Below, piece by piece: positions 11,878 to 62,400 of a stretch of DNA of 64,000 bases. The notes beneath the pieces are model-generated. The model was not told where the DNA came from. It ran no database searches and worked only from the letters and a program-made list of their open reading frames with translations. Each line of letters opens with the position of its first letter. The first letter of the stretch is position 1. This DNA is from Isoetes taiwanensis (lineage: Eukaryota; Streptophyta; Lycopodiopsida; Isoetales; Isoetaceae). The position numbers and the translations under genes are program-made. The DNA is taken from the NCBI GenBank assembly GCA_021234155.1, contig JAJEKV010000423.1, positions 124,001 through 188,000 on the forward strand, read 5' to 3'.

Positions 11878-12390
11878 TCAGTAAGGGCGCTGGCCAATGT
11901 AGTTACCAGGAGGATCATAGCTACAGATCATGAAAACATCTCCATCAAAACAGGTAACTCTGGCACATCCAACTCTGGTGGTACTTCTCCAAACAATCTG
12001 AGTATAGTGGCCACATTGATCATAAAAGGCACAGCTATTGCTCCAATAGTTATACCAGTGCCTCTCATTAACCCAGTCATTGGCTGCCTCAACAGGGCTC
12101 CAAGCCTTGCCTCTTCCCCAAAATATATTCTCTCCATATGGCCCCCCTGAATGCTGCAAATAACAGTTGCCTGAATTTCTCTTCACATTTGCCCACCATT
12201 GTGCATATGCTGCCAGTTTTGCATCCCATATAGGGGGCCTCAGACCTACTCTTGCTCTTGCCTGGTTCTGAGGATATAGAAACTGTGCTGCTAGACTGTT
12301 GTAGCCATAGTAGTTGCCTTCTGCATATGCTGCAAATATTGCTATGCTTGACACCAGTGTTATCATCCATGGCATTGCCATCTTCACCAT
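11878..12390 (-). CDS. PR1-like: Pathogenesis-related protein 1 (CAP superfamily), secreted
   Basis: A complete intronless 170-residue protein, the usual length for plant PR-1. Residues 1-24 form a signal peptide (hydrophobic WMITLVSSIAIFAAYAEG), so the mature protein is probably apoplastic. The CAP domain follows: QARARVGLRPPIWDAKLAAY (about 43-62), HSGGPYGENIFWG (80-92), the CRISP-type signature GHYTQIVWRST (127-137) and the second signature FMICSYDPPGNY (153-164). Six cysteines (76, 120, 126, 142, 147, 156) match the three-disulfide pattern, and the His/Glu set of the CAP cleft is present (H80, E87, E109, H128). The C-terminus PPGNYIGQRPY follows CSYD and fits the defence peptide CAPE1 that is released from PR-1 in other plants. 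PR-1 proteins bind sterols and are defence-induced in the family. The ATG at 12,390 was chosen because it gives the full signal peptide; a second Met at residue 4 is possible. It has no neighbouring host gene. Intactness suggests it is functional. Confidence 0.95.
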   Translation of the reverse strand: MVKMAMPWMITLVSSIAIFAAYAEGNYYGYNSLAAQFLYPQNQARARVGLRPPIWDAKLAAYAQWWANVKRNSGNCYLQHSGGPYGENIFWGRGKAWSPVEAANDWVNERHWYNYWSNSCAFYDQCGHYTQIVWRSTTRVGCARVTCFDGDVFMICSYDPPGNYIGQRPY

Positions 12391-12494
12391 ATAATCCTCA
12401 CAAAAAACAGAGCCTCCTTTCTATGCTAAATCTTTGTGCATAGAAAAGGAATCAGACTATGGCACCCCTGTTGCTTTCATCCTCTGCTGCTTCA

Positions 12495-24400: not shown

Positions 24401-25658
24401 AGAGGCCATCATGCCGAATACCACTAGCTATTTTTCTCCCATTTTCACTTACGATGTGGCATGCCATCGCTTCAAACGTGATGAAGAACCCTGCACCTGC
24501 TATCTTGCCCACAGACAGTAAGGTTTGAGTAATCCCTGGAACATAGTATACATCTTCGGTTTTGGATCCTGTTGCCAGCTCAACCATGATGGATCCTTTG
24601 CCACATATCTCATGAGAGTTGCTGTCACCAACATACACCTTCCTTCCAGCAGGCATCAGTTCTAAGGTGTGAAAGATTTCTTTGACAGGTGACATATGCA
24701 TGGACGCTCCGGAATCTAGCCATAGAACTTTCATCTCATTGATATATGGCGTAGTGTGAACCATGAACAATTTACCATTGCCTTCATACTTATCTTGGTT
24801 GTTCACTGGCCCCCTACGACGGTCATCTTTCAACTTAACCCTGCAATCTTTGGCGATATGGCCGGGCTTGTCGCAGCGAAAACATAGTCCCTTATTTGAA
24901 GGAGGGTTTCTCTGAAATCTGGTTGCCCCTGTACCTGTTCTTGATGTGCCTGCACCTGTCACACTGGAACTTCTAGCTACTGGTGCTGCTGGAGCCTTCC
25001 CTGTTCATCTTGGCCATATTGGTCTTCTATTCCTCCCTGCAAAGAAAGCAGCATCCTTGGAAGAAGATGCCTCTAGCTTCAACTTTCTCTCTTCTTCAAT
25101 GAGAGCTGCAATCATTTCTTCAAATGATTGTGAAGGCAAATTAGCTAGAGTTGTGGCCACTGATTTGAATGTAGGAGAGAGCCCATTCAACAAGACTGCC
25201 TTGGAATCTTCTACAGTCACTTTTGACTTCACCCGGGCTAATTGTACAGATAAACATCTCATGCGGCTTACAAATTCTGCTATGCTCTCCTGTCCTTCCA
25301 TCTTTAGAGCAAAGTACTACTGTTTGAGGGAAAGCTCACATGTTTTTCCTGCACCTTCAAAAGAATTATGAAGAGCATCCCAATTCTCCTTCGCCATCTT
25401 TGTCAAATCCATCAAATGGATATATTCTTCTCCCAAGGCAAGGCCAATCATTGTGATTGCCTTGCGATCCCTGCTTTCCCATTCTGTAGCCTTTGCAGGG
25501 TCTGTTGGTTTTGATTTTGTCCCTTCTACAACTCCCCATGATCCTTCCCGCATGAGGAGCAATTGCAATTTAACAGATCATGTGTGGAAATTTTCCCCTG
25601 TGAATTTTTCCAAGAACTTCTCTAAAAATTTATCCATACCTGGAGTAGGATTCGTCAT
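21475..25658 (-). pseudogene. Copia gag-pol polyprotein with stops, deletion and frameshift
   Basis: Start ATG at 25,658 (MTNPTPGMDKFLEKFLEKFT). Gag continues with in-frame stops at 25,578-25,580 (TGA), 25,317-25,319 (TAG) and about 25,003 (TGA). A CCHC zinc knuckle (CFRCDKPGHIAKDC) lies near 24,880. The protease is WLDSGAS near 24,720. The GAG-pre-integrase finger runs from LWHNCLGH to CEACVLGK near 24,190-24,340. The integrase keeps its first Asp (HSDVCGP), second Asp (RTDRGESF) and the Glu (NRTLLE), but a short deletion with frame change near 24,070-24,130 removes the strand after the first Asp. RT lies at 22,305-23,036 with YVDD intact, followed by a frameshift near 22,300. RNase H (YTDSDWAG, STEAEY) ends at 21,475. 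In the family these proteins build the capsid and copy and integrate the element. This copy can only move if helped. Confidence 0.93.
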
Positions 25659-37860: not shown

Positions 37861-40085
37861 CTAACCATCTACATTGCCAACAATAACGTTAGCTAGTTTC
37901 AAATCTCTATGGACTCTACAGGCAGTAACAAAAGCCAGCCACACGGGAACATCAGGTTCAAAAGGCATCGCATCAATGAGGTCCTTTGCCTCTGTCAAAT
38001 TTCCGGCATGACCAAGGTGGTCAACTATGCATGCATAATGATCGGCTGTTAGTTTAATCTCATAAAGATGACCCATGGCAACAAAGCAATTGTAGCCCAC
38101 ATCCAGCAAACCAATATGACCACATGCAACAAGGAGAGAAACTAAGACTAGATTGTCTGGTTTGAAACCATTGGAGAGCATTTCTTTGAATAGTTTCATC
38201 ACATCATTGCCACATCCATTTTGGGCATACCCTGAAATCAAAGATATCCAAGTAACATCGTCTTTATGGACATTTTATCAAATACATGGCGGGCATCATC
38301 AATGCACCCACATTTCGCAGATACATGCCAATCAGAGAATTCCCCAAAATGATATCTGAATCAAGTCCAAGTTTGATAACGTCATTATGCACATGTCCAG
38401 CACATTCTAAGCCTCCTAAACTCGAACATGCACTAATTGCACTCAGATATGTCACCTTGTTTAGTTCTAGATCATAATGTTGCATTTGATGATATAGCTT
38501 GATGGCATTGCTGGCATCTCCAAACTGAACTAAACCAGCAAGCATTGCGGTAAAAGAAACCACATCAGGAGATGGCATTAGTTTGAATACTTGCCATGCA
38601 TCATCAATGCTTCCACAAGCAATATACATGGCAATGTTGCTGTTACTCACAAATATTTCTTAGTTCAGTCCAGCCTGTATTACGTAAGCATGGATGAACC
38701 TGCCCCACTGCAAAGCAGTTGCAGAAGAACATCCACAGAGCATGCTAACAAAGGTAGCCTGATTTGGCTCTAGACCACTGTGCAGCAATTCAAGGAAAAG
38801 TTTAAGGGCTCCAAATCCATTCTGATTTTCAGCATATCCTGAAACCATCGATGTCCATGATACAACATCCCATTCCTGTAATCTGTCAAAAATCTGTTGT
38901 GCGACATCATTATTACCACATTTGATGTATATATCCAGTAATTTATTTTCTATGAACATGTCTAACTGTATATTAAATTTCAAAAGATGGGAATGGAGAA
39001 TTTTGACAAACTCTACTGCACTTCCACATGCATTCAACATTTTATGTAGGTGACTTTATTTGGAGTAAAATAATACTGCATTTCTTCAAACAATGTAAGA
39101 GCCTGACTTCTGTTGCCATATTCAGTATAACTAGAAATCATGACTGTCCATGAAACAGCATTCTTTTCTGGAATTCTATCAAACTGCCAAGCATCTACAA
39201 TATTCCCATATTTTACATACATGGCAAGAAGTGCAGTGCCAAGAAATACCTCTAGTTTCAATTCATTTCTCAGGAGAAGTGCATGAAGAAGCTTGCCCCA
39301 GCCTTGATTAGTACAAGAACTTAACATTGTAAGGTACGTTATTTTGCTTGGCTGCAATCCTATTTCTCGCATTTGAACAAACATATTTCTGGCTTTTTCA
39401 CCATCTCCATCTTGTACATACCCAGAGATAACTGCATTCCATGAAACCATATCAGGATCAAGCATTTTAGCAAATAACTGAGCAGCATCATAAATGCTTC
39501 CACACTTTGCATACATATTGATAAGTGCATTCTCAACAAATATATCTATATACGTAATAGATCTGATGATAAATGCATGAATGCACTTTCCTTGCTCTAA
39601 GGCATTTGCCTTGCACAGGCACACAAAATGCTAACATAAGTGACCTTGTTTGGTGCCATCCCACATTGTTGCTTCTGCTCAAAGAGAGCAAAAACCTGGT
39701 TACCATCTCCAACTTCAACATGCCCTGTAATCATAATTGTCCAGGTAAACACATCCTGATTGAACATACTGTTAAACAGAAGGCATGCATCTCTTATGGT
39801 TCTACACTTAATATACATATTAATCAGGGCGTTCCATAAGAGTTTATGTGGCCCGATTCTGTTCCTAATGATTTGAGCATGGACATGCCTTCCTTTGGTC
39901 CAGTATTGTTTCTTCGCACACTCCTGTAACCGAGAAATGCAATAGTTGCAATTTCCCTGATACACCAAGCCCAAATTAATATCCTCTCTATATTTTGAAT
40001 CTAATCTAGCAGTTGAACATGTAGAAAAGTTACGCACAAAACGATTGCCTGTTCTCAATCCCCAAATAAAATGCAGACTTCTCAT
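37861..40085 (-). pseudogene. PLS-class pentatricopeptide repeat protein, broken
   Basis: Start ATG at 40,085, followed by an Arg/Ser-containing organelle-targeting-like N-terminus (MRSLHFIWGLRTGNRFVRNF). Then come about six PLS triplets of about 100 residues each, with repeated NALINMYAKCGSI-, VSWNAVISGY- and PNKVTYVSIL-type segments. The last block, PDVPVWLAFVTACRVHRDLK, is the beginning of an E motif, and the frame ends before any complete E/E+ or DYW domain. Such proteins bind organelle RNA and usually specify C-to-U editing sites. The reading frame is broken by frameshifts near 39,600, 39,036, 38,320 and 38,270 and by a TAA at 38,660-38,662. It has no introns. It is most likely a dead paralogue. 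Sequencing error could explain one or two breaks, but not all. Confidence 0.92.
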
Positions 40086-40689
40086 AACCTTAGCAATCTT
40101 CTATTTTCCATTACTTTGCAAATGCCTTCTAAATAGCCTTTGCAGCTGCTGCTGTCTCTCTCAATATCCGGAGAATGATGCGGAACATTTGATGGAGCTT
40201 AACGCTCCATGTTGTTAGGGCTTGCAGCTCCCACATCATCAACTGATCCACTACAACAAATTTATGGCAGCGGCCGCCGCCGCAACATTTGTTTTGTTCC
40301 ACTTGTTTTCTTGTTTTCTGGTTTTAAGTTTAACTGTGATTATTATTTAAGATAGTGCGAGGAAATCTTAGTGTCAAAAATGCCTAGTTTGAGAGCATTG
40401 TTGTGGGCCTTGGTTTGGGATCTTTGGATTCTATTTAGTTCATGCAATCTATGCAGGAATGGGTGTTTCCTACAATGGGTTACTAGGGTCATCCAGTACT
40501 GAGGGAGAAGTCATGGACATGATAGTAAGAAAAGAATTGACGCATTGGGGTACCAGGGTAGCAAGGGACAGTATCGTTTAGACAGTGGGTACCATCGGAT
40601 AAGTCAATTGAAAAGAAAAATGATTGGAACCATTGGTTAGACAGCAACGGTTCGAACCACTAATAACATTACAAAAAAGGGGATACCAT
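40086..40689. other. Upstream flank of the PPR pseudogene
   Basis: No coding region. A GCGGCCGCCGCCGC patch lies near 40,270. The left border of the next copia element could not be placed exactly. Confidence 0.4.
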
Positions 40690-43141
40690 CATCCGGTATC
40701 CCTGGGAACTATTATAACAGATGATTTCACAAGGAAAAATTGGGCATACTTTATGGTTCTTAAATCTGATGCATTTAGATTTTCAAACAGTGGAAAGGAT
40801 TGGCAGAAAACTTTGTTGATAAAAAGATAAAGACAGTCAGGATTGACCAAGGGAGAGAGTTTGTGAGTGAAGAATTTGACGCCTACCTTGCAGATTGTGG
40901 TATTCGTCATGAAACCTCCATTGCATATGAGCATCAGCAAAACGGAGTGGTCGAACGTAAGAATAGGACTATTCTTGAATGTGCAAGATCTATGATATTG
41001 TCCAAAGGAATCCATCATAAGTTTTGGGTTGAGGCTGTTAATACTGTTGTTTATTTGCTTAACAGGTTGCCTACTAAAGTTGTTCCCGATCAAGTCCCTG
41101 AGGAGGCATGGACAGGGCAGAAGCCTACTGTTGTAGGTTTAAATTTTTTTGGGTGCACGGCATATGTCCATCTCTCCAAAGACGAGTGCAAGTCTGGTAA
41201 GTTTTCAAACTGTGCCTTGCCTTGTATGTTTGTGGGATATGGAGATATGGTGAAAGGGTACAAGCTGTATGTCCCATCTACTAACAGAATGATTGTAAGA
41301 AGAAGTGTCATTTTTCATGAACATGATTTCTTGGTAGTGGCCTCACAGCAGGTAACACTGATGACCCCTTGCAAACAGTCCATGAGGACAGTGTGGATAG
41401 TGAGACAGAGTCAGACAATGATGACAATGATTCCCATGATGAGTATCTTTCACCTGATATGACAGACCTCCCCTCTGAACCAGAATCAGAAGATGATAAT
41501 GGAATTGCTAGTCCTACCCCCACTGTTCCACTCCGACAGTCCACTACACAGCCCAAAAGGACAGCCAGAATGATTGAATATCTAGAAACTCGGAAACCTC
41601 GCAGTGCAACCTACAATGCTCTGCATAGCCAAGCATCGTTGGATGAGCCAAGACACTAACAAGAAGCCATCACTTGTCTTGAGAAACTCAGCTGGCAGAA
41701 GGCAATGGATGAAGAATACAATTCACTTATGGAAAATCGGACCTAAAAATACAAGCTGAAAATGATGAAAATAATAATATTTCCAGGTTCAAAGCACGTT
41801 TGGTAGCTGGGGTTGTTCCCAACATGCTAGTGTTGACTTTCATGAGACATATGCTCCAGTAGCACATTTGTCTTCAGTTAGAACAGTTCTTGCCCTTGCC
41901 ACGGCAATTGACATGGACATCCAGCAAATGGATGTCAAATCTGCCTTTCTTCATGGCAGATTGGATGATGAGGTTTATCTGAAACAATCTCCCAGCTATT
42001 GTGCTCATGGAGCTCAAAGACCAAGTTTGCAAATTAAAAAGCCATATATGGCTTAAAACAATCTTCGAGATTGTGGTATAAAACAATTCACTCATTTTTC
42101 TCTGCACAAGGATTTGTGAGAAGCGAAGCATACTGGAATGCCTACATTAAGCAAGCAGGCAGCAAGCGTATCATCATTGTACTTTATGTTGATGATCTAA
42201 TTCTTGCATCTAATCACCCTTCTATGATGCAGACCACCAAGCACAGCCTTGAACAGCGGTTTCGTATGACAGATCTCGGACCCTTAAAATATTTCCTACG
42301 CATACAGGTTGTCAGAAATCGCAAGGAGAAAACACTTGTTCTGCGTCAGTCCAAAGCCATTGAGTCTCTTCTTGCACGGACAAACATGCTTGCATGTCGT
42401 GAGGTGAGTACCCCTGCTGTTGCACACATCTCTTTCCCTGTGATTAATCAGGAACATCTTGGAGTCTCTTGTAGGAGCATTGTTGGCTCGCTCTTGCATC
42501 TGATGGTCTGCAGCAGGCCAGATCTAGCAGAAAGTGTCATTACTGCTAGTCAACATATGGAGAATTCCCAGCCGATCCATTGGCAGTTTGTCAAATGGAT
42601 TTTGAGGTACTTAAAGCATATCTCTTCTCTAGGACTCAGTTATCAAGATGCTCCAGATGTTCCCCACCTGCTCCTTGAAGGATATGTTGATGCCAATCAT
42701 GCAGTGAGACTGATTGCAAAAAATCTCGAACTTTTTCTTTATATGCTGCAAAGGGGAGTGGTCAGTTGGTCCAGTCGGAAACAAAAAGCCATAACTGTCA
42801 GTATGTGTAAATCCGAATACATGGCCATATGTGCAGCAACAAAGGAAGCAATTTGGCTCTGAAGATTGATGAAGGATCTATGTGCAGAACAGAAACATCC
42901 CACCGTGATCTTTTATAACAACAAAGCTGTTGTTAGCTTGGTCCAAAATCCCAGCAATTTCACCAAAGCTAAGCATATAGAGACGCAGTACCATTTTTTC
43001 AGGGAAAAGGTAGAAGAAGGAAAGGTAAACATCAAATACTTGAGCACCCATCTTATGACTGCTGATGCATTGACCAAACCCTTAGCAAGGAAACGGTTCA
43101 ATGAATGCCTTAGTGAAATGGGCATGGAAGCAAGTGGATGA
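40690..43141 (+). pseudogene. Copia pol remnant: integrase, RT and RNase H
   Basis: The integrase runs TDDFTRKNWAYF (40,710), then after a frameshift VRIDQGREFVSEEFDAYLAD with its Asp, and NGVVERKNRTILE with the catalytic Glu (40,800-41,300). An acidic linker follows (41,370-41,600). RT begins near 41,690 (KAMDEEYNSLMENRT), is interrupted by stops and frameshifts to 42,070, has QMDVKSAFLHG near 41,930, and YVDD intact near 42,185. RNase H starts as GYVDANHA, where the usual aspartate-tryptophan signature is partly lost, and includes SRKQKAITVSMCKSEY. A TGA at 42,861-42,863 interrupts it. The end is LTKPLARKRFNECLSEMG, with a stop at 43,139-43,141. It is non-functional. Confidence 0.9.
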
Positions 43142-46259: not shown

Positions 46260-47828
46260 TGTGACGTTCCAGCACAGTATACGGTCCTAGAACGTATACT
46301 GTACTGCCTCGTCACGCGTACACGCCACTCCGACCGACGTGTACGCCGACGGATAGCCAGGTAAGTAGCCCTAGGGGCAACTTGCTAGGAATGTTCACAT
46401 GTTATTAATGTGCACATATGCACATTAATGTGGGCACACTTTTCCATGTAGACACTTTTTGCCACCTTGCCATTAATGGCAAGTGGGCCCTTTCCAATTA
46501 TCCCACATGCCAAAAAGGGATAATTGGAAACCCTAGCCCTAAACCCATGTCTATTTAGGGTAGGAAAACCCTAACTTGCTAGTTTTTTCGTCCTTAGGGT
46601 TTTAGAGCCCCTGCTTTTGGCTGCCCAGAGCCAAAACCGCGATCCCGCACGCCGCCCAAGCTTAATTGCGCCATCGGTTTCTCAATTGATCATTTCGCCC
46701 GGGATGGTTGAACTCAGTCAGGGGAGGAGCCACTTTCGGGGATCAGTATTTGGTCAATTTAATAGCTCAAACCGTCTTCTAGTCATAGAACCCGGTAAGT
46801 TTAGACTATTAAATTGCCCATAGTAGCTATCTAGATCTTAGATCTGGGACACTAACTAAAGAACCTAACTCTATGATCTAGATTAGATCTAGTTCTTTAG
46901 TTCTTCGGTGATGTATATGGATGATGTATCTTTGTGAACTCCTTGTATTGGGAAGGGGGGTAGAGGCCCTAAGGCTTGTAGTTGATGCTCCTAGAGTAGC
47001 CTCTCTCTAGCACACCAGAGATTCGCCACAGGCACAAGAACCACACGGTTGTGGGTGAAGGGGCCAGGCCGGGCTTAGAAAGAGGTTCGTGTTCGACTCT
47101 TGAACGATCCCTATGGTGTGTTAGTGCTACCGGGGATCATTGTGACTAGGTCTAATGCCTTGCCACCGAAAGTGGGCAAGGCATGGGCTCGACACCGTGG
47201 GGGGGTTCACCTTCCAATGGGTTCAAGTCGAATACTGGAGGCGGTGGCCCTCTAGTCACCTTGAGTCAAGATGTAGACCCTCGGAGGGAGTGATCCCTAC
47301 CTGCCCCATCCGGGCTGGGGAGATGAAACCCGTGAATAGCCCTTTTGGCTATGCATCCGTGCTGGCTACTGATCAGTCCCAACACTTTTCAGCCTACTCG
47401 CAAAGTGTGCAATGGGAGGGGCGGATGGAGTGGACAACCCTATGCCATGTTCATATGCCAGCCCAAAGCCATTGCCATGAATGCAATGCGCAATGAACTC
47501 GAGACCCAAGCCGCCGGGTCATCCCTTGAGTCCGAGCCCGGGTAAAGCTTCCCATATGTATTGTGCTCATCTTGTTTATGCAGATGTAATGGACCACCCT
47601 TGAGGTGGTTATGTGCTTATGTTATATACCGACATGTATGTTTACGCCCGCAGCCTAGGTTGGCCCCGAGGGAGACGCGGTAGAATGACACCTTCACTCT
47701 TCCCACTTTGGGACCGTTAAGGTGCGGTGATGTGTGGAGGGCCCTATATCGATTGTGGAGCTGGTATGGGGAGAACTCTGTTTGTATACCGGTGAGGGCA
47801 ACAGTATGCGAAAGTAGGGGACGCCACA
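46260..47828 (+). repeat. 5' LTR of the chromovirus
   Basis: 1,569 bp from TGTGACGTTCC to GGGACGCCACA. It matches the 3' LTR in long identical AT-rich blocks interrupted by clusters of small changes in GC-rich spots. Its first 280 bp contain three inverted repeats (listed separately). Confidence 0.95.
46404..46530. repeat. Three successive palindromes in the LTR
   Basis: First, ATTAATGTGC / GCACATTAAT with a 6-nt loop at 46,404-46,429. Second, the perfect 18-bp palindrome CTTGCCATTAATGGCAAG at 46,466-46,483. Third, arms TTTCCAATTATCCC and GGGATAATTGGAAA (46,491-46,504 and 46,517-46,530). The first two are unchanged in the 3' LTR (from 58,034); the third has lost part of its left arm there. 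Confidence 0.9.
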
Positions 47829-47829
47829 G

Positions 47830-47840
47830 TGGTATCGAGC
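47830..47840 (+). promoter_or_regulatory. Primer binding site of the chromovirus
   Basis: TGGTATCGAGC, two bases after the LTR end. It matches the iMet-tRNA primer site TGGTATCAGAGC except for one missing A. Confidence 0.8.
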
Positions 47841-48285: not shown

Positions 48286-48386
48286 TTAGGTAGAGAAAGT
48301 CTGAAATAAGTGTAGATTTTAATTAAATAGGTGCCTTGGCATGATAAATTGAGCAACTCGAACTCGACCTAAAAAATTTCCCAAGC

Positions 48387-48395
48387 TATAAATAG
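48387..48395 (+). promoter_or_regulatory. Internal TATA box for leader ORF1
   Basis: TATAAATAG, a textbook plant TATA box, 94 bp before the ATG of ORF1. The bases after it (ACCCCCTCATTTTCTC) recur after the second internal TATA box. No ATG lies between the expected start site and 48,489. Confidence 0.65.
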
Positions 48396-48488: not shown

Positions 48489-48761
48489 ATGGCCCGAACC
48501 AAACAGACCGCCAGGAAGCGTCGCCCAGGCGAAACCACCAGCGCCACGGAGGCTGAGATCATTCGACAGATGCTTCGCGAGAGGCTCGCGAAAGGGGGTC
48601 GTTCGCCTTCGGACGAAGAGCAGGACACATCCGATCTGATCGACGCCTTCAACCAGCCAGTGGAACAGACGAAAGTAACATCACCAACCTCCATGGACGA
48701 GGAGACAAGGGAGGTATATGAGGAAATAGAGCGGGAGATCCGGGAACGTGAAAGAGCGTAA
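48489..48761 (+). CDS. Leader ORF1, N-terminus identical to the histone H3 tail
   Basis: A 90-codon frame starting MARTKQTARKRRPGETTSAT. After removal of Met, residues 1-9 (ARTKQTARK) equal histone H3 1-9, including the modifiable K4 and K9 and neighbouring R2, T3 and R8. From residue 10 it departs from H3 (RRPG instead of STGG). The rest is hydrophilic and acidic: EAEIIRQMLRERLAKGG, SDEEQDTSDLIDAFN, EETREVYEEIEREIRERE. The start context AAGCATGGC is strong, and it is the first ATG after the TATA box. It probably continued further, because another frame from 48,811 to 48,945 encodes a highly charged helix (IRKYERREKRKEDKKRKREE) and basic sequence follows to about 49,042. It lies where Ogre-type gypsy elements carry an extra ORF of unknown function. 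It is not gag: gag lies downstream. Function is unknown; the tail suggests interaction with H3 readers or writers (inference). Confidence 0.75.
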   Translation: MARTKQTARKRRPGETTSATEAEIIRQMLRERLAKGGRSPSDEEQDTSDLIDAFNQPVEQTKVTSPTSMDEETREVYEEIEREIRERERA

Positions 48762-48810
48762 GACCATTGAAGCAGCCACCTGAGATCCTCGAAGCAGAAG
48801 AGCAGTGTGT

Positions 48811-49042
48811 CCGGAGCCAGCAGAGGAAGCAGACCTTAGAAGGTTCATTAGGAAATACGAACGCCGGGAGAAGAGGAAGGAAGACAAAAAGAGGAAAAGG
48901 GAGGAAGAGGAACGTAAAAGCGCCAGAAGAGAAAAAGAAGGCTAAGGGGAAGTTCGTGGATAGCACAAGGAAGTCAAGGACCGCCTCACGAGGAAGAGGC
49001 CTAACCCCAAGATCGCCATCAAGGAGCGGCAAACCCATTTAA
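48811..49042 (+). pseudogene. Likely frameshifted continuation of leader ORF1
   Basis: 48,811-48,945 encodes an Arg/Lys/Glu-rich helix (ADLRRFIRKYERREKRKEDK and on) ending at TAA. An overlapping frame to 49,042 is Ser/Arg/Gly-rich (TRKSRTASRGRGLTPRSPSR). Both fit the tail of a charged nuclear protein better than chance sequence, but the joins are lost to frameshifts, so the real C-terminus is uncertain. Confidence 0.45.
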
Positions 49043-49889
49043 CCTTCAACTCCTCCGGACGACTCTTCCGATGGGGACTTCAACCCTAATGCTGCAGTGG
49101 AAGCTCTTCTGGGCACCTGGACGACGCAACGTAGTGCCCCGACCAGCCAAAGACTGAAAGCAACCCCAAAGAAGACCAAGTGCGTAAACCCCCCGAAAAC
49201 CCGCAAGATGGGATAGAAAGAAGTAGCCAACGACCGCCTGGGTGAAGCTTACGCCACCGCATGTGGTAAAGATATACCAAAGAAAGATGAGGGAGCACGA
49301 GGCTTATATGAAGAAATGGGAAGCCTACAAAGAAGTACTATGAAGAAAATAGGGTCGATCATCGAGGGAGGGGCGTACAAAAAGCCAGACCTTGAAGCCG
49401 CCACCACCGGGCCCAAGGCCCCAAGCCACCACCCAAGAAGAAGGTAGACAGGAAGGAGGTGGAGAGGAGAGCTACCGAGGGAGATTAGGCACTTCCAACA
49501 GGTAGCCCACGGACTTCTAATCCCCCCGCGGCCCCTTTTGCTCTGCTAGTGCGAAGTAATGCAGCCTACAGATTGCACTTCGTGGTCCGCGAGGGCGGAC
49601 GAGGCGCCGCTTAGCAATGCAAGAAGCGGCCGAGGCAAAGATAGTGCAACATTTTGAAGATTCAAGCGACCGCCCACGCCAAGCTGGTAACCCTAATGCG
49701 ACAAGACATGAGTCTTGCGACCGCATAAAGGGGAGAATGCCCTTAGAACGTTTTTTGTAAATAATTGAAAATTTTGTATTATAGAGCAATTTTGTGTACT
49801 TAATTGCATAAACTTGATTAATTAGAGCAAGTTAATAAGTTTTAGCTTTTATTGCAGTGAAATAGGACAATTGCAAAGGCGAAACACGC
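49043..49889. other. Leader spacer between ORF1 and ORF2
   Basis: Broken, formerly coding-like, purine-rich sequence to about 49,480. AT-rich sequence follows (TTTTGTATTATAGAGCAATT near 49,770) that resembles a transcript end; a similar AT-rich block recurs after ORF2 near 52,040. Confidence 0.4.
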
Positions 49890-50478: not shown

Positions 50479-51450
50479 ATGGCAACCTCTGACTTTCGCA
50501 GATGGTACAGCGCCAGCGCTCATGCTGCCGAGGCCGACGTCGACCAAATCTTCCATATCTTCAGGAAGGAGGTAGATGTCCAGGCAACCTTGCACGCAAC
50601 CCCAGCTTACAGTAGAGTCTTGTCTGAGTTCCAAGCTAGGGTAGAACCAGCTTAGGCTCCCCCCCCTTGTGTAGGCTACTTTGTCCCTAGGCAGCCCCTC
50701 TAGCGCAAAAAGATTAGGACGACGTCCCCAACATCGCCAAATACCTAACAAACAAAGCGCAAGCAAGACACCTGGAGCCAATGGTCCTAACTGGCCAATA
50801 GGACCAAGTATTTCTCTTTCAACACCGCCTTTGGCAATCTTTTCACCCATCGCGTCGAGAACACCATGGGGAAACCTCCATTCCCCATGGACGTAGACCC
50901 ATTAGCCATAGCAAATAACAACGCTCCCTCACACGTATGAAACAGGAGCAGAAGGGAAGGAAGAAGACTTCGGATGAACAGGAATCGAAGAAGAGGAAGA
51001 CTATGTCGAAGCTCGACCAAATGGAGGAGCGGCGACAAGCAGAGCGTGAGTGGCAAGACTTCGAAGAAGAAGGCAAACTCTCGTGAGTCACGCCACCCCT
51101 TGGTTAGGCATCACAAGCCTAGTCTCCCATTATTGTCGGCGAGGCAGGCGCTCCTCCCGTTTACATCCAAAAACCTCCCGAGTGTGTGGAAAGGGAGTAC
51201 TGACCTGAGAAAGAGTTGCCGCACTAACTCCGAAGAACGGACCTGGACGACTTCATCATCCGAGGAGCATCCGACTTCCCACTCCAAGTAAGAGAAGCCG
51301 ACACTTACACGGAGAGTCGACCTCCCGACATCCAAGCCTACGCAAAGATCGAGGCGATTATGGAGGCGACGGGCAAAGAAATCAACTACCGACGGGAGGA
51401 AGAGTTCCTTGCCCTACGTGAACGATGGGGATCCGTTATGCGGCCTGGAA
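50479..51450 (+). pseudogene. Leader ORF2, frameshifted, unknown function
   Basis: Starts MATSDFRRWYSASAHAAEAD and runs 58 codons to a TAG just before a C8 run (50,656-50,665), a likely frameshift site. Further coding-like pieces in other frames are MGKPPFPMDVDPLAIANNNA (50,865), a charged segment MKQEQKGRKKTSDEQESKKR leading to KLDQMEERRQAEREWQDFEE (50,937-51,085), and DLDDFIIRGASDFPLQVREA to NYRREEEFLALRERWG (51,241-51,430). Like ORF1 it combines a short N-terminal domain with a charged central helix. I know no homologue. It may be a duplicated, diverged relative of ORF1, because the upstream modules are duplicated. Confidence 0.5.
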
Positions 51451-52242
51451 CATCCTAACGCAAGCTCTTCAAGAACACCTCCCAGGAGAGAAGAGGCTTA
51501 ACTCGACCTAAGGAGGGCTTCCAGCAAACCGAGACTACAGGGGAGCTCACCACGGCGGTGGAGGTTGATGACTTGGCGCATTACGAGCTGGATACCGAAG
51601 TGGCGAGGATCCCGTCCCGAAATCCAACGCAGGTCATTGCGTTATTACCTCCCTGGCGATGGATGGTAGATTAGCGGTAATTCACCTTAAGTTCACCCCC
51701 AGAGGCGCAGGAAGGAGTATCGATCTTGATTGCACTCTCGGGATTGGCCCGCATGCGGCGGTTGCCCCTCAACACCGAAAAGTATGCCATTCCGTGAAAG
51801 AGAGCAAGTAGCACTTCGACGTCTTCGACCGCCATACCTACAAAGTAAGCAGCAAGATCTGGGCGGATAGCGGCCTTTATACCTCCGACGCGGGGAATGG
51901 AAGACTTGGCGAGAGCTTTCTGGGGATCTTCAGCCTAATGTTCTAGGAACTTTGGGCCATTCAAGGGGGAACAGCCCAAGTGAAAAAGTTCCTAGAGGAT
52001 AACCCATCTTACGGCGGGCAAGAATGATTAGCATTAGTTGTAATTTTGTATTAGCATAATATAAAATATGAATAGAATTTCGTTTGCTCTATAAATGTTT
52101 TGTTGATGTATCTTGTGTCCCCAACCATGCCAATAAACATAAATAATGCAAGAAAACAAGGAAAACTAACCATATAGCTATGAACCACTTGTGTATGCAG
52201 CTAGAAGCCTAAACGCAGGAGAACGTCAAACCGCGAGAACTT
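51451..52242. other. Leader sequence between ORF2 and gag
   Basis: Coding-like scraps continue to about 52,026 (for example VKKFLEDNPSYGGQE before a TGA). AT-rich sequence with TATAAATG at about 52,090 follows. No clear promoter module of the kind seen before ORF1 and ORF2. Confidence 0.35.
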
Positions 52243-55200
52243 ATGGAAGAACAGAGTCGCCCTGTGCCACGCCTCGCAAGGAACCCCTTTGAAGAATTTG
52301 GACAAATGACCCCGAGAAGAAGAAATATCGCAAATGAGGACGGACCTTGAGCGGATAAAGGCTTTGCTAGCCGCTGACGAGGAAGAGCAGTTCGGTGGTA
52401 GCGCTCAACCGCCGCAAGCGTCGGCTTCGAGGAGGAGAACAGAAGAGACAAGAAGAGGGGCAAGAGAGGAAGGTCCCCCAGTTCGGACTCCTCCGACTCA
52501 AGCCCAGATTCAGACTCCGATTCCGAGGAAGAAGAAGAGCAGAACCAAGACCGAACAGATGGAAGGCAGAGGAACACTCCGGACGGACGACAAAGGGACA
52601 CAAGAACCCTCGACTACCGTAAGAAAGTGGACTCTGCAGATTGGGAAATGTTTGAAGGCCAGAAGCTCGAAAGCAATTCTCAAAAGCAGAATAGTGGTCG
52701 CATGGAGGCGGAAGCTTGGCTTGACGAGATGAGTGAATATGGCAACGCTTTATGGTATGAAGGATAAGGATAAAAGGCGTGGTAGCAACCGCGAAACCCG
52801 AAAAGGAGCAAAGACGCGATTTGGTGGAAGGGTTATGCCAAAGCTCATGGCTTAAGCAGTGGATGCTTGCAAGTTCAGAAGTTTGCTAAAGCCTTCTGCC
52901 GCCATTACGCGTTCCAAGAGAGCACAAGTCCAAAGATGATGCAAAATAGATTCCTACAGTTGCGGCAAGGCAACAAGTCGCGCAGAAATATACAGAGGAG
53001 TTCATGAGGTCGAGGTCAGATGTGCCAAAGTTAGGTGAGAAGCATGCAAGAAAGCTACATTGAAGGTCCGAATGAGGAGATCCGCGAAGCTTGTAAGGGC
53101 AATAAACCCTAGAACAAGATCGGGTTTGAGTCCAAGGCAATAAGCTTGCAAGGAACGGGACCTCGTGAGTAGCGGGCGAGGCGCAGCAGATTATCGACAA
53201 AGGCAAGGCAACAGCGGTTTAGCCCGAGAACGGCCCGCCCGGGACCCGGCTAGAGCCCCATATAGTAGCAATCGGGGAAGCAGCAGAGAAGAAGCGGTGT
53301 CCTTTAAAGATAAGCGGGGGAAGGGTCAAACTACTCCAAAGCAAAGGCGATCCTTCTTGCGAGCCATGCCCAAGGAGAAGAGACAGAGTGCATAGAAAAG
53401 CGACTCGCTTCCAGGTGCTTCCAGCCAGGCCATAGAACAGCGGCCCCATATCGCTATGAGTGCGGCACTAGCGAGTTGGGGATTGGGACACTCGTCCGGA
53501 CGACGACGACGGCGAGGAAGCCCGCGACTACATTGTGGTGAGTGTCATATCTTTGCCGCGAATAGATACGAGCAAGCGGAGAGCCAAGATAAGGTAATTT
53601 CCACAGTAGGAAAGGCCAAGGCCAAGTCATTTATAGTCCTGATAGATTCGGGAAGTAGCCATAACTTCGCATCCCCCAGAATGGCCCAAATGTTGAAGTT
53701 GAAACCATTAAAGTCAAAGCCAAGGCCCGTTGTCTTAGCAAGTGGAGCGATAAAAGAAGGCGTATCGGCGTGTAAGAGAATCAACTTCGACATCGACTTG
53801 CCAGGGGATTAAAATTCAGATGGGGGCAAAAGTAATGGGCATTGGGAAATACGACTTGATCATAGGTATGGAGTACCTTGGACCAGCAGGGGCCATCATT
53901 GATTGTGGAAAGCGGAAAGTGACCTTCCCAACACCCGACGGCAAGATCATTGAGATCACAGGTAAAGAAGTTGTCCCCATCATGCGTTGTATGTCTTCTA
54001 AACTACTGCTCAAGTGTATCAAGAGTGAGCAGGTGGCATACATCTTCAAGCTTGAGATTGAAGGCGGAGTCGAAGAGAGTGAAGAAGATAAAGTGCTCAA
54101 CAAGCTGCCCAAGCGAATAGCTAGCTTGATCACGCGGAGTTCCATGAGCTCTTCCGGATGAGATCAAGCGGCTCCCTCCTAAAGGGGAGTCGAATGCGTA
54201 GATAGCACTAACCGGGAAAAGCCGGAGCAAGCAAGGCTCCATATAGAATGACAACGCAAGAGTTGGCGGAGTGAAGAAGCGATTGCAGGAGTCGCTCGAC
54301 CTAGGTTTCATTAGACCTAGTGTCTCGCCATTTGGCGCCCATTCTTTTGTCAAGAAGAAAGATGGATCTCTCGAGGATGTGCATAGACTATAGACAGCTT
54401 GAATAAGCACACCATCAAGAACAAGTATGCGCCCCAAGATCGCATCTAATTTGATGGATCAGCTTCAAGGAGCAAAGATCTTCTCCAAAATCGACTTAAA
54501 GTCGCTATCATCAGATCCGATAAAGGAAGAAGATATCCATAAAACCGCTTCGGGGGACGCCTTAAGATGGGCACTATGAGTTTCTGTGAATGCCTTTCGG
54601 CTTATCAAATGCCTCGCGAACGTTCATGAGGCTCATGAACGATATCTTGAGGGAGTTCCTAGACACCTTTGTGATTGTTTTCTTTGATGACATTTTGGTG
54701 TATAGCAAATCCCTTGAAGAGCATGTACAACACTTGAGAAGAGTCTGCCGAGAAGTTGAAGAGGCACCAATTGTGCGCCAAGTTGTCGGTGCCATTTCGC
54801 GAGCGGAGAAGGTGGAATACCTTGGTCATGTGATTTCAGCAGAAGGCATCTCGGCGGACCCCGCCAAGATTGAAGCGGTTGATTCAATGGCGGTAGCCAA
54901 GAATGTCGCGAGGGAGGTCGAAGTTTTTCGGGCTAAGGGGGTACTACAGGGAAGTTCGCGGAAGAACTTTGCTAAGATAGCGGCCCCATTAACGGACTCG
55001 ACAAGAGCGAGAAGGTGAAAGATTGGGCGAGCATTGGCACAAGAAAGCCCAAAAGGGTTTGAATTGTTGAAAGAAGCTTTGGACGACAGCCCCCGCCTTG
55101 ACCTGGGACCGAGAAAGATAAGCTTGTAGCAAACAGATGCAAGTAAAATAGCTACGTAAGTGCTTATGCGCAGAAGAGCGTGTGGTAGCGTGATGACTCG

Positions 55201-57054
55201 GTGAAGATGAACGACGCCAGACGCCAGCTACCCTGCAACACACGACCAAGAATTGCTTAAGGGTTGTCGGCACTAAGAATATGGAGGCATTACCTCTTAG
55301 GAAGGAAGTTCCAATTGGATACCAGACCATCGAGCCTCCAAGATGTATTCACGCAACCACACCTTAACTGAGGCAGCGGAGGTGGATGGAGTTCCTCGAG
55401 GAATATGACTTTGATATAGTCTACAAGTGGGGAAGCTCAATGTGGTAGCAGATGCTTCGAGGCATCCCCCGACAACTAGAGTGCATTGTAATGCAATTTC
55501 GACGCCTCCGGCGACTTTGGTAAGAAGATTGAAGAGTCCTTTTGCCAACGGATGTGGATTTCAGAGAAATATGGGCAAGCTCTCTAGGGAGGCTAGAACA
55601 GATAAAGAGGGGAAGCCTTCAAGCATTATAAGAAGGAGGGCAACCTCGTTATATCATAAGGACAAGTTGCCAGCGCACACGAAGTCATCGAGGGTAAGGA
55701 AATTGATCCTCCATGACATGCACAACAGTCCAATAGCTGGCCATGCGGGATTCATGAAAACATATTTCAAAGTGCGCAGCAGCCTATTATTGGCCGAATG
55801 AAGAAAGGTGTAGCTCGCTACATCAAGGAATGTCACCTATGCCGCCAGACAAAGGCGGAGCAGTCTTGAATTCCGGGGGCATTAGAGCCATTAGCGTGCC
55901 AAACGCTAAGTGGGAGGTGATTAGCATGGATTTCATCACAAGGACTCTGGGCGACCGCCGAGGGAAAAGACGCTTTGATGGTAGTAGTCGACAAGTTGTC
56001 GAAAATGGCACATTTTGTGCCTTGCGGTGACCATGATACGGCTATGGATACTGGGCTCTTCACCAAAGAGATCTTTAGGCTTCATGGCATGCCAAGGGAG
56101 ATCATCTCAATGGATCCGAATTCATGCGCCTTTTTACGGACCTCTTTCGCGACAATCCAGGCTAAGCTATCCATGAGCGCGGCATATCATCCTCGACGGA
56201 TGGCCAAGCGGAGCGGACCAACAGGATTTTAGAGGACATGCTACTAAACTATGTCGGAATAAGCAAGGTATGTGGGAAGAATTTATTCACTTGGTGGAGT
56301 TTGCATACAATAGCACCATGCAGAATCATCCCAAATGTCGCCGTTTATGATCAATTACGCTTATCGATTGTTTAACTCCGCATTACATTTGGCACAACCC
56401 CGTCAAAAGTGGAAGTCTCAAGTGAGCCAGATGTTGGCTGATATGCAGCAGCCTTGTGGAAGAGGTTCGAGGGTATCGCTAGCAGCAAGAAGTCGACAAA
56501 AGAGCATCACGACAAGCATCGAAAAAGAAGAGAGTTCAAAGTTGGAGATGATGTTTGGCTCAAGATCAAGGTGAAGCGGCTTAAGCTCGGGATTGGGAAT
56601 TGCAAGAAGCTTGCTCCAAGGTGGGCTGGACCTTCGTAATAGTCGAGAGAGTAGGTAATCAAGCCTACAAGCTAGACTTGCCAAAGACACCTAAAGATTC
56701 ATAAGGTCTTCCACGGAGTTTGTTAAAGAAGCACACCCCAAACCCGGTGACGGTTTGGACACTCCAACGTTGTTGAAATGACGAGGAGGAACCGGAGATA
56801 GTTCCGAGCACTGATTCTTGATAAAGCTTTCAAGAAAAACGAGGAGATCAGAATTCCTCCAATACTTGGTCAAGTGGAAACACTTACTGGAAGACGCGAC
56901 ATGGGTACTTAAGAAAGATTTTAGTAAAGCAAGCACCTACGTTTATGGAGCAATGGGCGGCAAGGTCATCTCCCAAGAAATCGCCAGGCATGTCGATTTG
57001 TGTAGATTAATTCTATGTATAGTTAAGATTAATCCACGATGCAACCTATGCTAG
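52243..57054 (+). pseudogene. Chromovirus gag-pol polyprotein, frameshifted
   Basis: Gag begins MEEQSRPVPRLARNPFEEFG at 52,243. The gag core lies in shifting frames at about 52,700-53,100 (AEAWLDEMSEYGNALWYEG; FCRHYAFQESTSPKMMQNRF followed by LQLRQG). A damaged zinc knuckle lies near 53,450. Protease: FIVLIDSGSSHNFAS near 53,640. Pre-RT: YDLIIGMEYLGPAGAIIDCG near 53,850. RT has MPFGLSNA near 54,590 and the catalytic FFDDILVYS near 54,685. RNase H is badly broken (54,990-55,470). Integrase: zinc finger HDMHNSPIAGHAGF near 55,715 with CHLCRQ, core WEVISMDFIT near 55,915 and VVVDKLSKMAHFV near 55,980, second Asp in EIISMDPNS near 56,100, Glu in RILEDM near 56,228. The DNA-binding end is EFKVGDDVWLKIKVKRLKLG (56,532), then the chromodomain-like segment. 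Function in the family: capsid, reverse transcription, integration into heterochromatin. More than ten frame changes make this copy inactive as read. Confidence 0.9.
56818..57054 (+). pseudogene. Chromodomain-like C-terminus of the integrase
   Basis: SEFLQYLVKWKHLLEDATWV followed by LKKDF is the core of an integrase chromodomain (usual pattern YLVKWKG....ATWE). The conserved KWK tryptophan and the ATW motif are present. The aromatic after KWKG in HP1 is Leu here, as in group II chromodomains of plant chromoviruses. The first beta strand is disturbed by a frameshift. In the family the module binds methylated H3 tails or associated factors and steers integration. Confidence 0.8.
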
Positions 57055-57894: not shown

Positions 57895-58429
57895 CAAAGA
57901 CGATAATCGGTCCTAGAACGTGATAATCGCATCGCCAAATCACGCGACCGACATCGCCGGCCCTCAAAATCGACGGTACTGACGGATAGCCGTAAGTAGC
58001 CCTAGGGGCAACTTGCAGGAATGTTCACATGTTATTAATGTGCACATATGCACATTAATGTGGGCACACTTTTCCATGTAGACACTTTTGCCACCTTGCC
58101 ATTAATGGCAAGTGGGCCCTTCCAATTACATGCCAAAAAGGGATAATTGGAAACTCTAGCCCTAAACCCATGTCTATTTAGGGTAGGAAAACCCTAACTT
58201 GCTAGTTTTTTCGTCCTTAGGGGTTTTAGAGCCCCCGTTTTGGCTGCCCTGTGAGCCAAAACCGCATCCCGCGCCGCCAAGCTTAATTGCGCCCATCGGG
58301 TTTCGGAATTGATCAGCTCAGCAGATGGTTGAACTCAGTCAGGAGGAGCCACTCGGGGGATCAGGTATTTGGTCAATTTAATAGCTTTAAACCGTCTTCT
58401 AGTCATAGAACCAAGAAGTTTAGACTATT

Positions 58430-59286
58430 TGATACGAGGGGGCATGCTGGGGGAGTGGTCCAAATGGGAAAAAAGACTAAGGCAATGGGGTATTTGGAGA
58501 ACAATGGTTACAAAAGCAATGGTTACAAGATATCATGGGGCAAGAAATTATCAATAACCATTAGCAAGAGATGTTTTAAGAAAAAAGGGGAGACAACAAA
58601 AGAATAGGCTTCGAAAGCAAATATCGTTGCTATTCCCGCAACAAAAAGGGTGGATCAAAATAGCATGGCAGCGACCCTTTCTCCGGACGAAAAGGCCCGA
58701 TTGGGCTATATCAGCAGTTAACGGCCAGCTCAGGGACACAGCGGAATCGCGGACTTGGTTTTCGCCACCGCATGCATCCGACAGGGAAGAGATAGCAACG
58801 CTCTTGGTTTACGCACCAAAGCATCGGTTATTATTTGCTCTTACCAAATCCGACCGTTTTCCCCGTGATTGAGCCGTGGATGTTATAAGCGGGGCATCCG
58901 GGTCCCTTTCGTTTCACCCACGGATGCAGGATATCCGGCTTTTCGGTTAAGCCTAAGATTGAATCGAAGTTCTACTCTTTGTAGGTTGTGTTTGAGCCTA
59001 TCCAACCCATTGCAATTGTAAGATGGGAATGATCGCAGTTGAAAGGGATAATAGGTCGCGACTCAATTCCTTTCACTGTTTCCCTTGGAAATTGCCTTAG
59101 TTCTTATCTGGATCCGGTTGGGTGGTGAACTGGATGCCCAAATCCATTGGTTGTGGAAACCAAGATGACTAGTTGTGGAAACCAAAGCTAATGCTCTTAA
59201 GTAAAGATTGTTTCTTCTATACTTTGTCTATACAATTGTGGTTTCAAAGAAGTTACGCCTTTAAGCTTTCCCCTTAAAGCGTATCA
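58430..59286 (+). repeat. Left LTR of the nested element
   Basis: 857 bp, TGATACGAGGGGGCATGCTG...CTTAAAGCGTATCA. It matches the right LTR in long identical blocks with small indels between them. Confidence 0.95.
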
Positions 59287-59288
59287 AG

Positions 59289-59300
59289 TGGTATCAGAGC
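59289..59300 (+). promoter_or_regulatory. Primer binding site of the nested element
   Basis: TGGTATCAGAGC, two bases after the left LTR; exact iMet-tRNA type. Confidence 0.92.
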
Positions 59301-59309
59301 GGAAGTTAC

Positions 59310-60510
59310 GATTCTTCTGGAATCTATGGGCTATGGGAACATCAAGGCTGCAAAAACACCAAGAATCTTGCAAGCCTGTGCTGCAAGAATAGATGGGTTT
59401 AACTGTGTCAAAGAAATGTGGGGGGCGAAGTACATAGCTAAACAGGCGAATCTTGGAGCGTGGCGTCCAAGGTGGAAATTCTAGAGCCCCAAGAATTTGT
59501 GTAATTCTAGGACAAGGATTTTGTGCCTGATGAATAAGCCTATTATTCTAATACATTGGAATTGGTGATTACTGAATGAGGCTGGAGCATCTCTGGCTGG
59601 AGCATCTCTAGCAGTAGAAGAGAAAAAGTTCGGAGCTTTCACGGAGAATGCTCGAAGTATATGGGCCGACTTGTTGAGAACGAGTTCGGATTATTGGGGA
59701 AACTTCTATGATCCTTTGGGGATTATTTAATAAGGGTGACTGCTAGGTTGTCATGGAAAAGCTTGTCATGGAGACAAGTAGTTTATCGTGGAGACGAGTT
59801 ATCATGGAGACAAATATCTTGTCATGGAGACAAGTAAACAACTGCTACAAAACATTGAGTCCTGCTTGTGATTACGGAGTCAGATCGTGGTGATCTGAGA
59901 GACTGATTGACCGTGGGGGTCATCTATATAAATATTTGACTTTGGAAGTCATATTAACACTTGACCTTATTTGCATGCTTAGTGATAAGCATGGGAAGGG
60001 AACTTTACGGATAAATCTGTCAAAGATATGGATGCTAAAGATTTGGATGCGGAATCTCAAAATTGCTTCCTATGGGACAGACTTATGGGTAAAAGTTCGT
60101 AAGTTGATTTGATTTGGTTTGTAATATTTGATTTTTATGTGGAATAAAAATTAAATTATTATGAAAGCATGGTGCATTAGATGTAATTTTTGAAAGGGGG
60201 TAATTGTTGTTATTACACAATAGACCTATAAAATTACATTAGTACCGTGGAGGTACGCAATTAAGTAGTACCGTGGAGGTACGACAAATACAAATGTATC
60301 GTGGAGATACAATAGTTAATATCGTGGTGATACTATCAATAAGTACCGTGGAGGTACAAACGATAGCAATGTGCCGTGGAGGTACAAAGAAATATCGTAC
60401 TGTGGAAGTACGCGCATATTATTTGCAGAACCTTCAGACGTATGGGGCAATCCCCTTAAGAAGGGATGGGAAATTTGGAGCGAGTCTTTGGAAGATCGTG
60501 GACGATCTTC
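59310..60510 (+). repeat. Array of about twenty small hairpins with covarying stems
   Basis: Short inverted repeats with stems of 4-8 bp and loops mostly of 5 nt fill the interior of the nested element. The loop is usually GTGGA or a one- or two-base variant, while the stems differ but remain complementary: GTACC/GGTAC (60,242, 60,268, 60,343), GTATC/GATAC (60,296), CGTACT/AGTACG (60,396), CTTGTC/GACAAG (59,762 and 59,818), CAGATC/GATCTG (59,881), TGACC/GGTCA (59,908), TGACT/AGTCA (59,937), CATGCTTA/TAAGCATG (59,974), ATTTTTAT/ATAAAAAT (60,131), GAAGATCG/CGATCTTC (60,491). Others with different loops lie at 59,310, 59,492, 59,532, 59,634 and 59,708. No ORF explains the pattern. Function unknown; it may act in the RNA (packaging, dimerisation) or arise by a hairpin-producing copying process. 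Confidence 0.88.
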
Positions 60511-60513
60511 ATT

Positions 60514-60527
60514 AAGAAGGGATGGAT
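60514..60527 (+). promoter_or_regulatory. Purine-rich tract of the nested element
   Basis: AAGAAGGGATGGAT directly before the right LTR start TGATATCTGGGGG; the expected site for plus-strand priming. Confidence 0.7.
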
Positions 60528-61383
60528 TGATATCTGGGGGCATGCTAGGGGAGTGGTCCAGTGGGAAAAAGACTAAGGCAATGGGGTATTTGGAGAACAA
60601 TGGTTACAAAAGCAATGGTTACAAGATATCATGGGGGCAAGAAATTATCAATAACCATTAGCAAGAGATGTTTTAAGAAAAAAGGGGAGACAACAAAGAA
60701 TAGGCTTCGAAAGCAAATATCGGGTTGCTATTCCCCGCAACAAAAAGGGTGGATCAAAATAGCATGGCGCGACCCCTTTCTCCGGACGAAAAGGCCCGAT
60801 TGGGCTATATCAGCTAGCTAACGCCAGCGGCTCGGGGACCTTGGAATTTGGACTTCGCCACCGGGCAATGATCCGACAGAAGAGATAGCAATCGCTCTTG
60901 GTTCCGCACCAGCAATCCGGTTATTGGCTGCTCTTACCAAATCCGACCTGCTTTTCCGTGATTGAGCCGTGGATGTTATAAGCGGGGGCATCCGGTTACG
61001 CTACGTTCACCGCTTCGGATCGCCAGGGATATCCGCTTTTAGGTTAAGCCTAAGATTGAATCGAAGTTCTACTCTTTGTAGGTTGTGTTTGAGCCTATCT
61101 GAACCCATTGCAATTGTAAGATCGAATGACGCAATTTGAAGGGATAATAGGTCGCGACTCAATTCCTTTCAATTTGTTCCCTTTGAAATTGCCTTAGTTC
61201 TTATCCGATCCGGTTGGGTGGTGAACTGGATGCCCAAATCCATCGGTTGTGGAAACCAAGATGATCGGTTGTGGAAACCAAAGCTAATGCTCTTAAGTAA
61301 AGATTGTTTCTTCTATACTTTGATTTGTACAATTGTGGTTTAAAAGAAGTTACGTCTTTAAGCTTTCCCCTTAAAGTGTATCA
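60528..61383 (+). repeat. Right LTR of the nested element
   Basis: 856 bp, TGATATCTGGGGGCATGCTA...CTTAAAGTGTATCA, followed by the CTATT target duplication. Confidence 0.95.
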
Positions 61384-62400
61384 CTATTAAATTGCCCATA
61401 GTAGCTATCTAGATCTTAGATCTCTGGACACTAACTAAAGAACCTAACTCTATGATCTAGATTAGATCTAGTTCTTTAGTTCTTAGGTGATGTATATGGA
61501 TGATGTATCTTTGTGAACTCCTTGTATTGGGAAGGGGTAGAGGCCCTAAGGCTTGTAGTTGATGCTCCTAGAGTAGCCCTCTAGCACACCGGTAGATTCG
61601 GCATGTGCACAAGAACCACACCGGTTGTGGGTGAAGGGGCACAGGGCTTAGAAAGAGGTTAGGTTGTTCGACTCTTGAGCGATCCCTATGGTGTGTTAGT
61701 GCTACCAGGGATCATTGTGACTAGGTCTAATGCCTTGCCACCGAGTGCGGGCAAGGCATGGGCTCGACAACTGGGGTGGGGGTTCACCTTCCAATGGGTT
61801 CAAGTCAATCTGGGCGGTGGCCCTCTAGTCACCTTGAGTCAAGATGTAGACCTCCTCGGAGGGAGTGATCCCCACCGCCCCATCGGGAAGGGGGAGATGA
61901 AACCCGGGGAATAGCCCCTTTGGCTATGCATCCCGCTGGCTGATCAGTCCCAACACTTTTGAGCCTACTCGCAAAGTGTGCATGGGAGAGGGCGGATGGA
62001 GTGGACAACCCTATGCCATGTTCATATGCCGCCCAAAGCCATTGCCATGAATTAAATGCGCAATGAACTCGAGACCCAAGCCGCTACCATCCCCTTGAGT
62101 CTCGAGCCCCGGGTAAAGCTTCCCATATGTATTGTGCTCACCTTGTTTATGCAGATGTAATGGACCACCCTTGGAGGTGGTTATGTGCTTATGTTATATA
62201 CTGACATGTATGTTTACGCTTCCGCAGCTAGGTTGGCCCTGAGGGAGACAGGGTAGAATGACACCTTCACTCTTCCCACTGGGACTCGTTACGGGTGCAG
62301 TGATGTGTGGAGGGCCCTATATCAGTGTGGAGCTGGTATGGGGGGAGAACTCCTGGCTTGTATACTGGTGAGGGCAGGTATGCAGTAGGGGACGTCACAA

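Follow-up and report, generated by a model that had tools for sequence, protein, structure and literature searches.

The genome of Isoetes taiwanensis contains a lineage of chromovirus-type LTR retrotransposons whose first open reading frame (ORF1), judged by its sequence, is a captured and remodelled histone H3 and not just a short mimic of one. The predicted protein opens with an exact copy of H3 tail residues 1-9, continues with about 310 other residues, and closes with an H3 fold, and substitution patterns across the genome show purifying selection on both the N-terminal H3(1-9) and the fold. We consider it roughly 70% probable that a lineage of this type captured an H3 gene (canonical or CENH3), retained it ahead of gag as ORF1, and with it presents H3(1-9) on a protein held in chromatin.

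ORF1 and the element that carries it

Within the window, i.e., the whole 64,000-nucleotide stretch of DNA analysed, the open portion of ORF1 spans positions 48489-48761 on the plus strand (90 amino acids in 90 codons, reading MARTKQTARKRRPG... or MARTKQTARKRRPGETTSAT...), and matched itself at 100% identity along with at least 149 relatives in the genome. Its first codons encode MARTKQTARK (48489-48518, plus strand; read from the window sequence and counted by genome pattern), so that residues 2-10 are identical to H3 residues 1-9, and cleavage of Met before Ala would bare ARTKQTARK at the N-terminus. A TATA box (CTATAAATAG, 48386-48395, plus strand) lies about 95 bases 5′ of the ORF1 start in the window, and a TATA box occupies this upstream position in all eight copies whose reading extended to it (L001-L008, of which L001 is the window copy). 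The coordinates, start, upstream TATA box, and exact H3 match given by a first-pass annotation, made from the letters and a list of open reading frames, are thus all present in the window as it described them. The 90-residue frame it reported does exist, but as a truncated piece only: the frame is open over 386-444 amino acids in 16 of 26 places read in the genome (a non-random sample, see below), and in the window copy it is frameshifted past 48761, with the remainder in other frames up to about 49743 (48762-49743, plus strand). This remainder was located by tblastn with L010 ORF1, which aligns to the window in two frames over residues 112-417 and 212-390. Likewise, the earlier statement that the match to H3 stops after K9 holds for the tail, but not for the protein, which has an H3 fold at its end (remnant at about 49475-49743 in the window, plus strand, tblastn with L010 ORF1); this fold had been missed because the window copy is frameshifted.

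The histone domain PF00125 was detected in all four ORF1 proteins scanned from the window's family, hereafter family A (E-values of 1e-26, 2.1e-28, 7.6e-28, and 2.5e-25), and the best PDB chains for ORF1 were histone H3 (E 1.5e-25, residues 293-416). Residues 10 to about 46 of H3 are absent from ORF1, with about 310 unrelated residues in their place, bringing the protein to a length far from the approximately 136 residues of H3. This linker (residues 11-318 in L010) yielded 2,970 candidates in the protein collection, none at E ≤ 0.01, and the H3 proteins inspected among the matches listed for the whole-protein and fold searches (at least 120 each, with 6 and 11 inspected, respectively) were all ordinary, partial, or tandem H3, none with the linker. 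Structure models reached a mean pLDDT of 55.4 for family A and 42.2 for a sister family, B (see below), too poor for testing the fold; the family-A model includes helices at residues 112-155 (pLDDT about 75-90) and a long linker that is partly coiled-coil-like.

The carrier is a Ty3/gypsy chromovirus-type LTR retrotransposon, as established from its paired LTRs, domain order, and chromodomain. In the window, all of its parts are on the plus strand. The 5′ LTR (46347-47828, from blastn of both element ends and reading of the ends) has C as its first base where the 3′ LTR has T (TGACGG), and is directly followed by a primer-binding-site-like TGGTATCGAGC (47830-47840, read from the sequence), which we take to resemble the plant initiator-tRNA-Met site. 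Downstream of ORF1 are an ORF2 remnant (50479-52012, tblastn E 9e-70; about 510 amino acids in L070) without a Pfam match at the curated cut-off, a frameshifted gag and aspartic-protease region (52243-53806, tblastn; PF13650 E 2e-5), and a frameshifted pol with reverse transcriptase, integrase, and C-terminal chromodomain (53805-57004, tblastn; RVT_1 E 1.6e-11 and Integrase_H2C2 E 3.8e-5 by Pfam, with rve below the cut-off at E 0.007; chromodomain by Pfam in other copies). The Pfam order of protease, reverse transcriptase, and integrase is that of Ty3/gypsy elements. The 3′ LTR was recovered by blastn in two parts (57980-58429, start read, and 61383-62399) on either side of an unrelated insertion at 58430-61382, and the LTR pair is 90.9% identical over 1047 and 470 aligned columns (blastn, two blocks). 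With frame changes in ORF1, ORF2, gag, and pol, the window element is old and broken, and its flanks, as read, hold no matching 5-base target-site duplication. The insertion itself (about 2.95 kb) has similar stretches at 58467-59286 and 60563-61383, spaced by about 2.1 kb, and probably represents a short LTR element that inserted into the 3′ LTR. Other features of the window recognised by eye include Ty1/copia pol-like frames at 21475-25004 (minus strand) and 40779-42862 (plus strand), a 180-residue minus-strand frame resembling a PR-1/CAP protein at 11878-12420, and minus-strand frames resembling a broken pentatricopeptide-repeat gene at 39034-40100.

Conservation of the histone tail in one element family and of the fold in two

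We searched the whole assembled genome (1,658,258,908 bases, i.e., 1.66 Gb, in 1,110 contigs) with the window ORF; among the best 150 of 1,838 candidates, which were scored, 123 align from residue 1 and the other 27 only from residue 4 or later. We then read 26 distinct family-A places (L001-L028, L009 being the same as L004 and L010 the same as L008), a non-random sample made up of the eight best matches and twenty chosen mainly for long open frames. A complete histone end is present in 11 of the 16 long open frames (403-444 amino acids). A search with H3 itself (best 150 of 9,022 candidates scored) returned 135 matches beyond canonical H3, at 71-86% identity and covering mostly H3 residues 25-135, and 8 of the 15 family-B loci read (L044-L058) have an intact ORF of 408-421 amino acids. 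These intact family-B frames (L048, L050, L052, L053, and L055-L058) begin with an N-terminal part (MAITKSAPDPTTLSIVEIYA...) of about 310 residues without Pfam match, followed by a near-canonical H3 fold (85% identical; PF00125 E 3.8e-41), and family B has no ARTKQTARK.

The surroundings of ORF1 are alike in both families. ORF2-like frames lie 3′ of ORF1 on the same strand in five of five family-A and three of three family-B loci, and long pol frames were found in four of these five (the exception being L070) and two of these three, with gag joined to a piece of integrase in L067. A Chromo domain (PF00385, by Pfam) sits at the end of pol in both L062 (family A, E 7.1e-11) and L063 (family B, E 3.4e-8). 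LTR pairs were identified on contig C953 for family A (96.8% identity over 1,572 columns, the LTR being 85-86% like the window's) and C1018 for family B (95.4% over 1,600 columns); for two other family-B contigs, no LTR pair was found on C919, and C1034 has a 3.9-kb repeat in place of a simple one. Both ORF1s have F at H3 position 54 and end in P, and the two ORF2s, both located behind ORF1, are weakly similar (25% identity, E 2e-7), which together suggests that families A and B stem from one capture. Family B has the fold without the tail, so the captured H3 must have some use for which the tail is dispensable.

The tail of family A is both abundant and variable in its coding. A degenerate DNA pattern for MARTKQTARK matched exactly at 1,051 places genome-wide (516 + 535 on the two strands), compared to 0 + 0 for the reversed pattern, and within one mismatch at 1,410 places (669 + 741), again compared to 0 for the reversed control. 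The first 100 exact tails listed use 55 different codings, and 51 codings remain among the 95 left once five canonical H3 places are removed, a few more of which may be host H3 genes. Pairwise differences at third bases among these 95 tails range from 0.24 to 0.67, reaching 0.58-0.67 at the four fourfold-degenerate Ala and Thr codons, and the fixed positions of the tail differ at about 0.013 per site when exact and one-mismatch places are taken together. We had also considered a constraint on the ORF1 start at the RNA or DNA level, which is rejected because the third bases of the tail are free to vary. On contig C217 (G000:C217:120970-132589), three identical exact tail codings recur on one strand at a spacing of about 5.8 kb, and on contig C1032 (G000:C1032:11105051-11108667), three ORF1 matches follow one another on the same strand at intervals of about 1.65-1.68 kb, possibly as a tandem array of the ORF1 region.

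Estimates of dN/dS across the 16 open frames were 0.039 for the tail, 0.334 for codons 11-40, 0.166 for the linker, and 0.126 for the fold, and those across the 11 complete frames 0.047 for the tail, 0.163 for the linker, and 0.082 for the fold (Nei-Gojobori, pooled over pairs; the tail comprises only nine codons and the pairs are non-independent, hence the values carry no probability). In family B, the corresponding values were 0.121 for the N-terminal part and 0.032 for the H3 part (7 ORFs). Nine diverged ORF1s, six of them chosen by the tail motif itself, share the tail while their residues 11-80 fall to 11-27% identity in the most distant pairs. Within the 26 family-A places, the nonamer is kept in 24, and in 23 of these together with its Met; the exceptions are A7V in L024, R2Q in L027, and L018, in which the nonamer is intact and Ile replaces the start Met. 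In the 32 places read, K9 is followed by R, P, C, Y, or V, with S absent from all of them. Queries made of the fold only also led back to the tail, with an exact copy on the same strand, 0.8-1.0 kb upstream, for 11 of 17 checkable matches (6/9 and 5/8 for the two queries) and none for the other six, checkable matches being those in the range up to base 3.54 million of contig C907, where exact tails are listed completely, and omitting the self-match of the second query. The first-pass annotation had anticipated that a working tail would persist in other copies through synonymous changes while the sequence after it diverges, and this is the pattern found in the other copies of the genome.

Candidate functions and competing readings

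Silencing of transposons in plants runs through histone H3, above all K9. On the reading we favour, removal of the Met would leave a genuine H3(1-9) N-terminal end on the ORF1 protein, host writers and readers of H3K4 and H3K9 would accept this tail, and the fold would pair with H4. The element protein, and with it cDNA or RNA, could then be held in chromatin or marked as chromatin, and the element may gain by targeting its integration, by packaging, or by diluting silencing marks. Conservation runs from A1 to K9, limits that would fit readers in need of a free N-terminus plus K4 or K9. Methylation of K9 may be disfavoured by a proline directly after it, and the variation at residue 10, where proline is frequent, counts against a simple K9 substrate. 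We thus favour a chromatin-embedded or chromatin-bound surrogate of H3 over a purely soluble decoy, because the free residue 10 speaks against a simple K9 substrate and the tailless family B against a role of the tail alone.

More tentatively, and with the odds somewhat against it, the protein may act as a private histone, i.e., an H3 variant without residues 10-46 that would form element-specific nucleosomes or nucleosome-like complexes on the DNA of the element or at its target sites. If true, the element would write its own chromatin state and escape marks that need S10, K14, K27, or K36, and would represent a transposable element that encodes a core histone and puts it to work in its life cycle.

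A rather unlikely alternative is that the protein stays outside chromatin, where H3(1-9) would occupy H3K9 and H3K4 enzymes and readers and so weaken silencing, the fold being a remnant or serving dimerisation. Selection peaks precisely over residues 1-9 and slackens immediately after, which speaks for such a decoy, and the modelled linker, long and partly coiled-coil-like, would keep the tail away from the nucleosome. However, the family-A fold is itself under purifying selection (0.082), and family B retains its fold (0.032) in the absence of any tail; therefore, the fold has a task of its own.

A second doubtful reading, no better placed, concerns the gene that was captured, which may have been CENH3 rather than canonical H3, with the protein then working at centromeres. 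The fold signature (EIRHFQ, LIPRA, VTL) resembles plant CENH3, and the diagnostic fold positions divide nearly evenly, eight being like Arabidopsis CENH3 and seven like host H3. In overall identity, however, family A is slightly nearer to host H3 (46-52%) than to that CENH3 (44-49%), and family B clearly resembles H3. A host CENH3 gene was not identified in the genome, where canonical H3 is coded at 15 places (96-98% identity).

It seems more improbable still that the tail serves self-recognition, such that the chromodomain of the integrase would read the methylated ORF1 tail and thereby join the integration complex and the ORF1 protein. While the Chromo domain PF00385 is found in both families, its KWKHLP motif, read by eye against HP1 positions, appears to be without one aromatic cage residue, a mark of group II, and family B has the chromodomain and no tail.

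Finally, codon usage separates the element tails from those of the host. The 15 host H3 tails code the first Arg as AGA (13/15), the second as CGN (15/15), and the last Lys as AAA (14/15), as opposed to CGN in 79, AGN in 71, and AAG in 82 of the 95 listed element tails. Given this difference in bias at three codons, conversion of element tails by host H3 genes is unsupported. Either a chance match, which the first-pass annotation had judged unlikely, or recent copying of a host H3 gene start into this one element, which it had kept as an alternative, would explain why the nine residues equal those of host H3, but both are refuted by more than 1,000 exact places with none in the control, codings unlike those of the 15 host genes, and an ORF1 that is not H3 from residue 10 onward.

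Taken together, the capture of H3 and the conservation of its tail suggest that the element uses the chromatin-reading machinery of the cell for its own ends. The element H3 keeps exactly the residues seen by K4 and K9 enzymes even as the linkers diverge, which points to the ground on which element and host are in conflict, and this can be tested with peptides and one protein. The lineage also offers what may be a natural experiment on what H3 residues 1-9 do without the remaining tail, and would add retrotransposons to the parasitic genomes with stolen histones.

Relation to known systems

A literature search, with most subscription papers and preprints outside its reach, found no retrotransposon-encoded histone, and the word "histone" is absent from the available text of the genome papers for I. 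taiwanensis (PMC8566536) and I. sinensis (PMC10541799). Extra or captured ORFs are documented in other LTR elements, including those of bdelloids (PMC5408684), those covered in a plant review (PMC7264820), and an orchid Ty3/gypsy element that carries an AlkB-type RNA demethylase (PMC12786077). As far as the accessible parts of these papers go, the Isoetes element resembles them in having an extra host-derived ORF, which in the orchid case acts on an epigenetic mark, and they mention no histone for such elements ("histone" occurring 0 times in the accessible text of PMC7264820). Similarly, the Isoetes element has the gag-pol layout of plant group II chromoviruses, with integrase followed by chromodomain (PMC3350952, PMC12786077), the chromodomains of this group being described as without the aromatic residues of group I (PMC12786077). 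Unlike these chromoviruses, as portrayed in the same excerpts, it has two further ORFs ahead of gag, the first of which is a histone H3.

Viral histones, i.e., core histones captured by a parasitic genome as in ORF1, have been described in DNA viruses, namely the bracovirus H4 (CpBV-H4/CvBV-H4) and a single xenomavirus H3 (PMC9145170), and CpBV-H4 joins host nucleosomes and acts via its N-terminal tail (PMC5423620), according to the available portions of these papers. ORF1 differs from these in its location in a retrotransposon, and the accessible text of the viral-histone review (PMC9145170) contains "retrotranspos" and "retrovirus" 0 times each. The tail of the xenomavirus H3 is reported there to be highly divergent, whereas ORF1 has residues 1-9 exact and the rest of the tail replaced. 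Influenza A NS1, the classical H3-tail mimic (PMC12937675), is comparable to ORF1 as a parasite protein that offers an H3-tail-like sequence to host factors. The mimicry of NS1, however, involves a few residues at the C-terminus, while ORF1 has nine at its N-terminus, linked to a histone fold.
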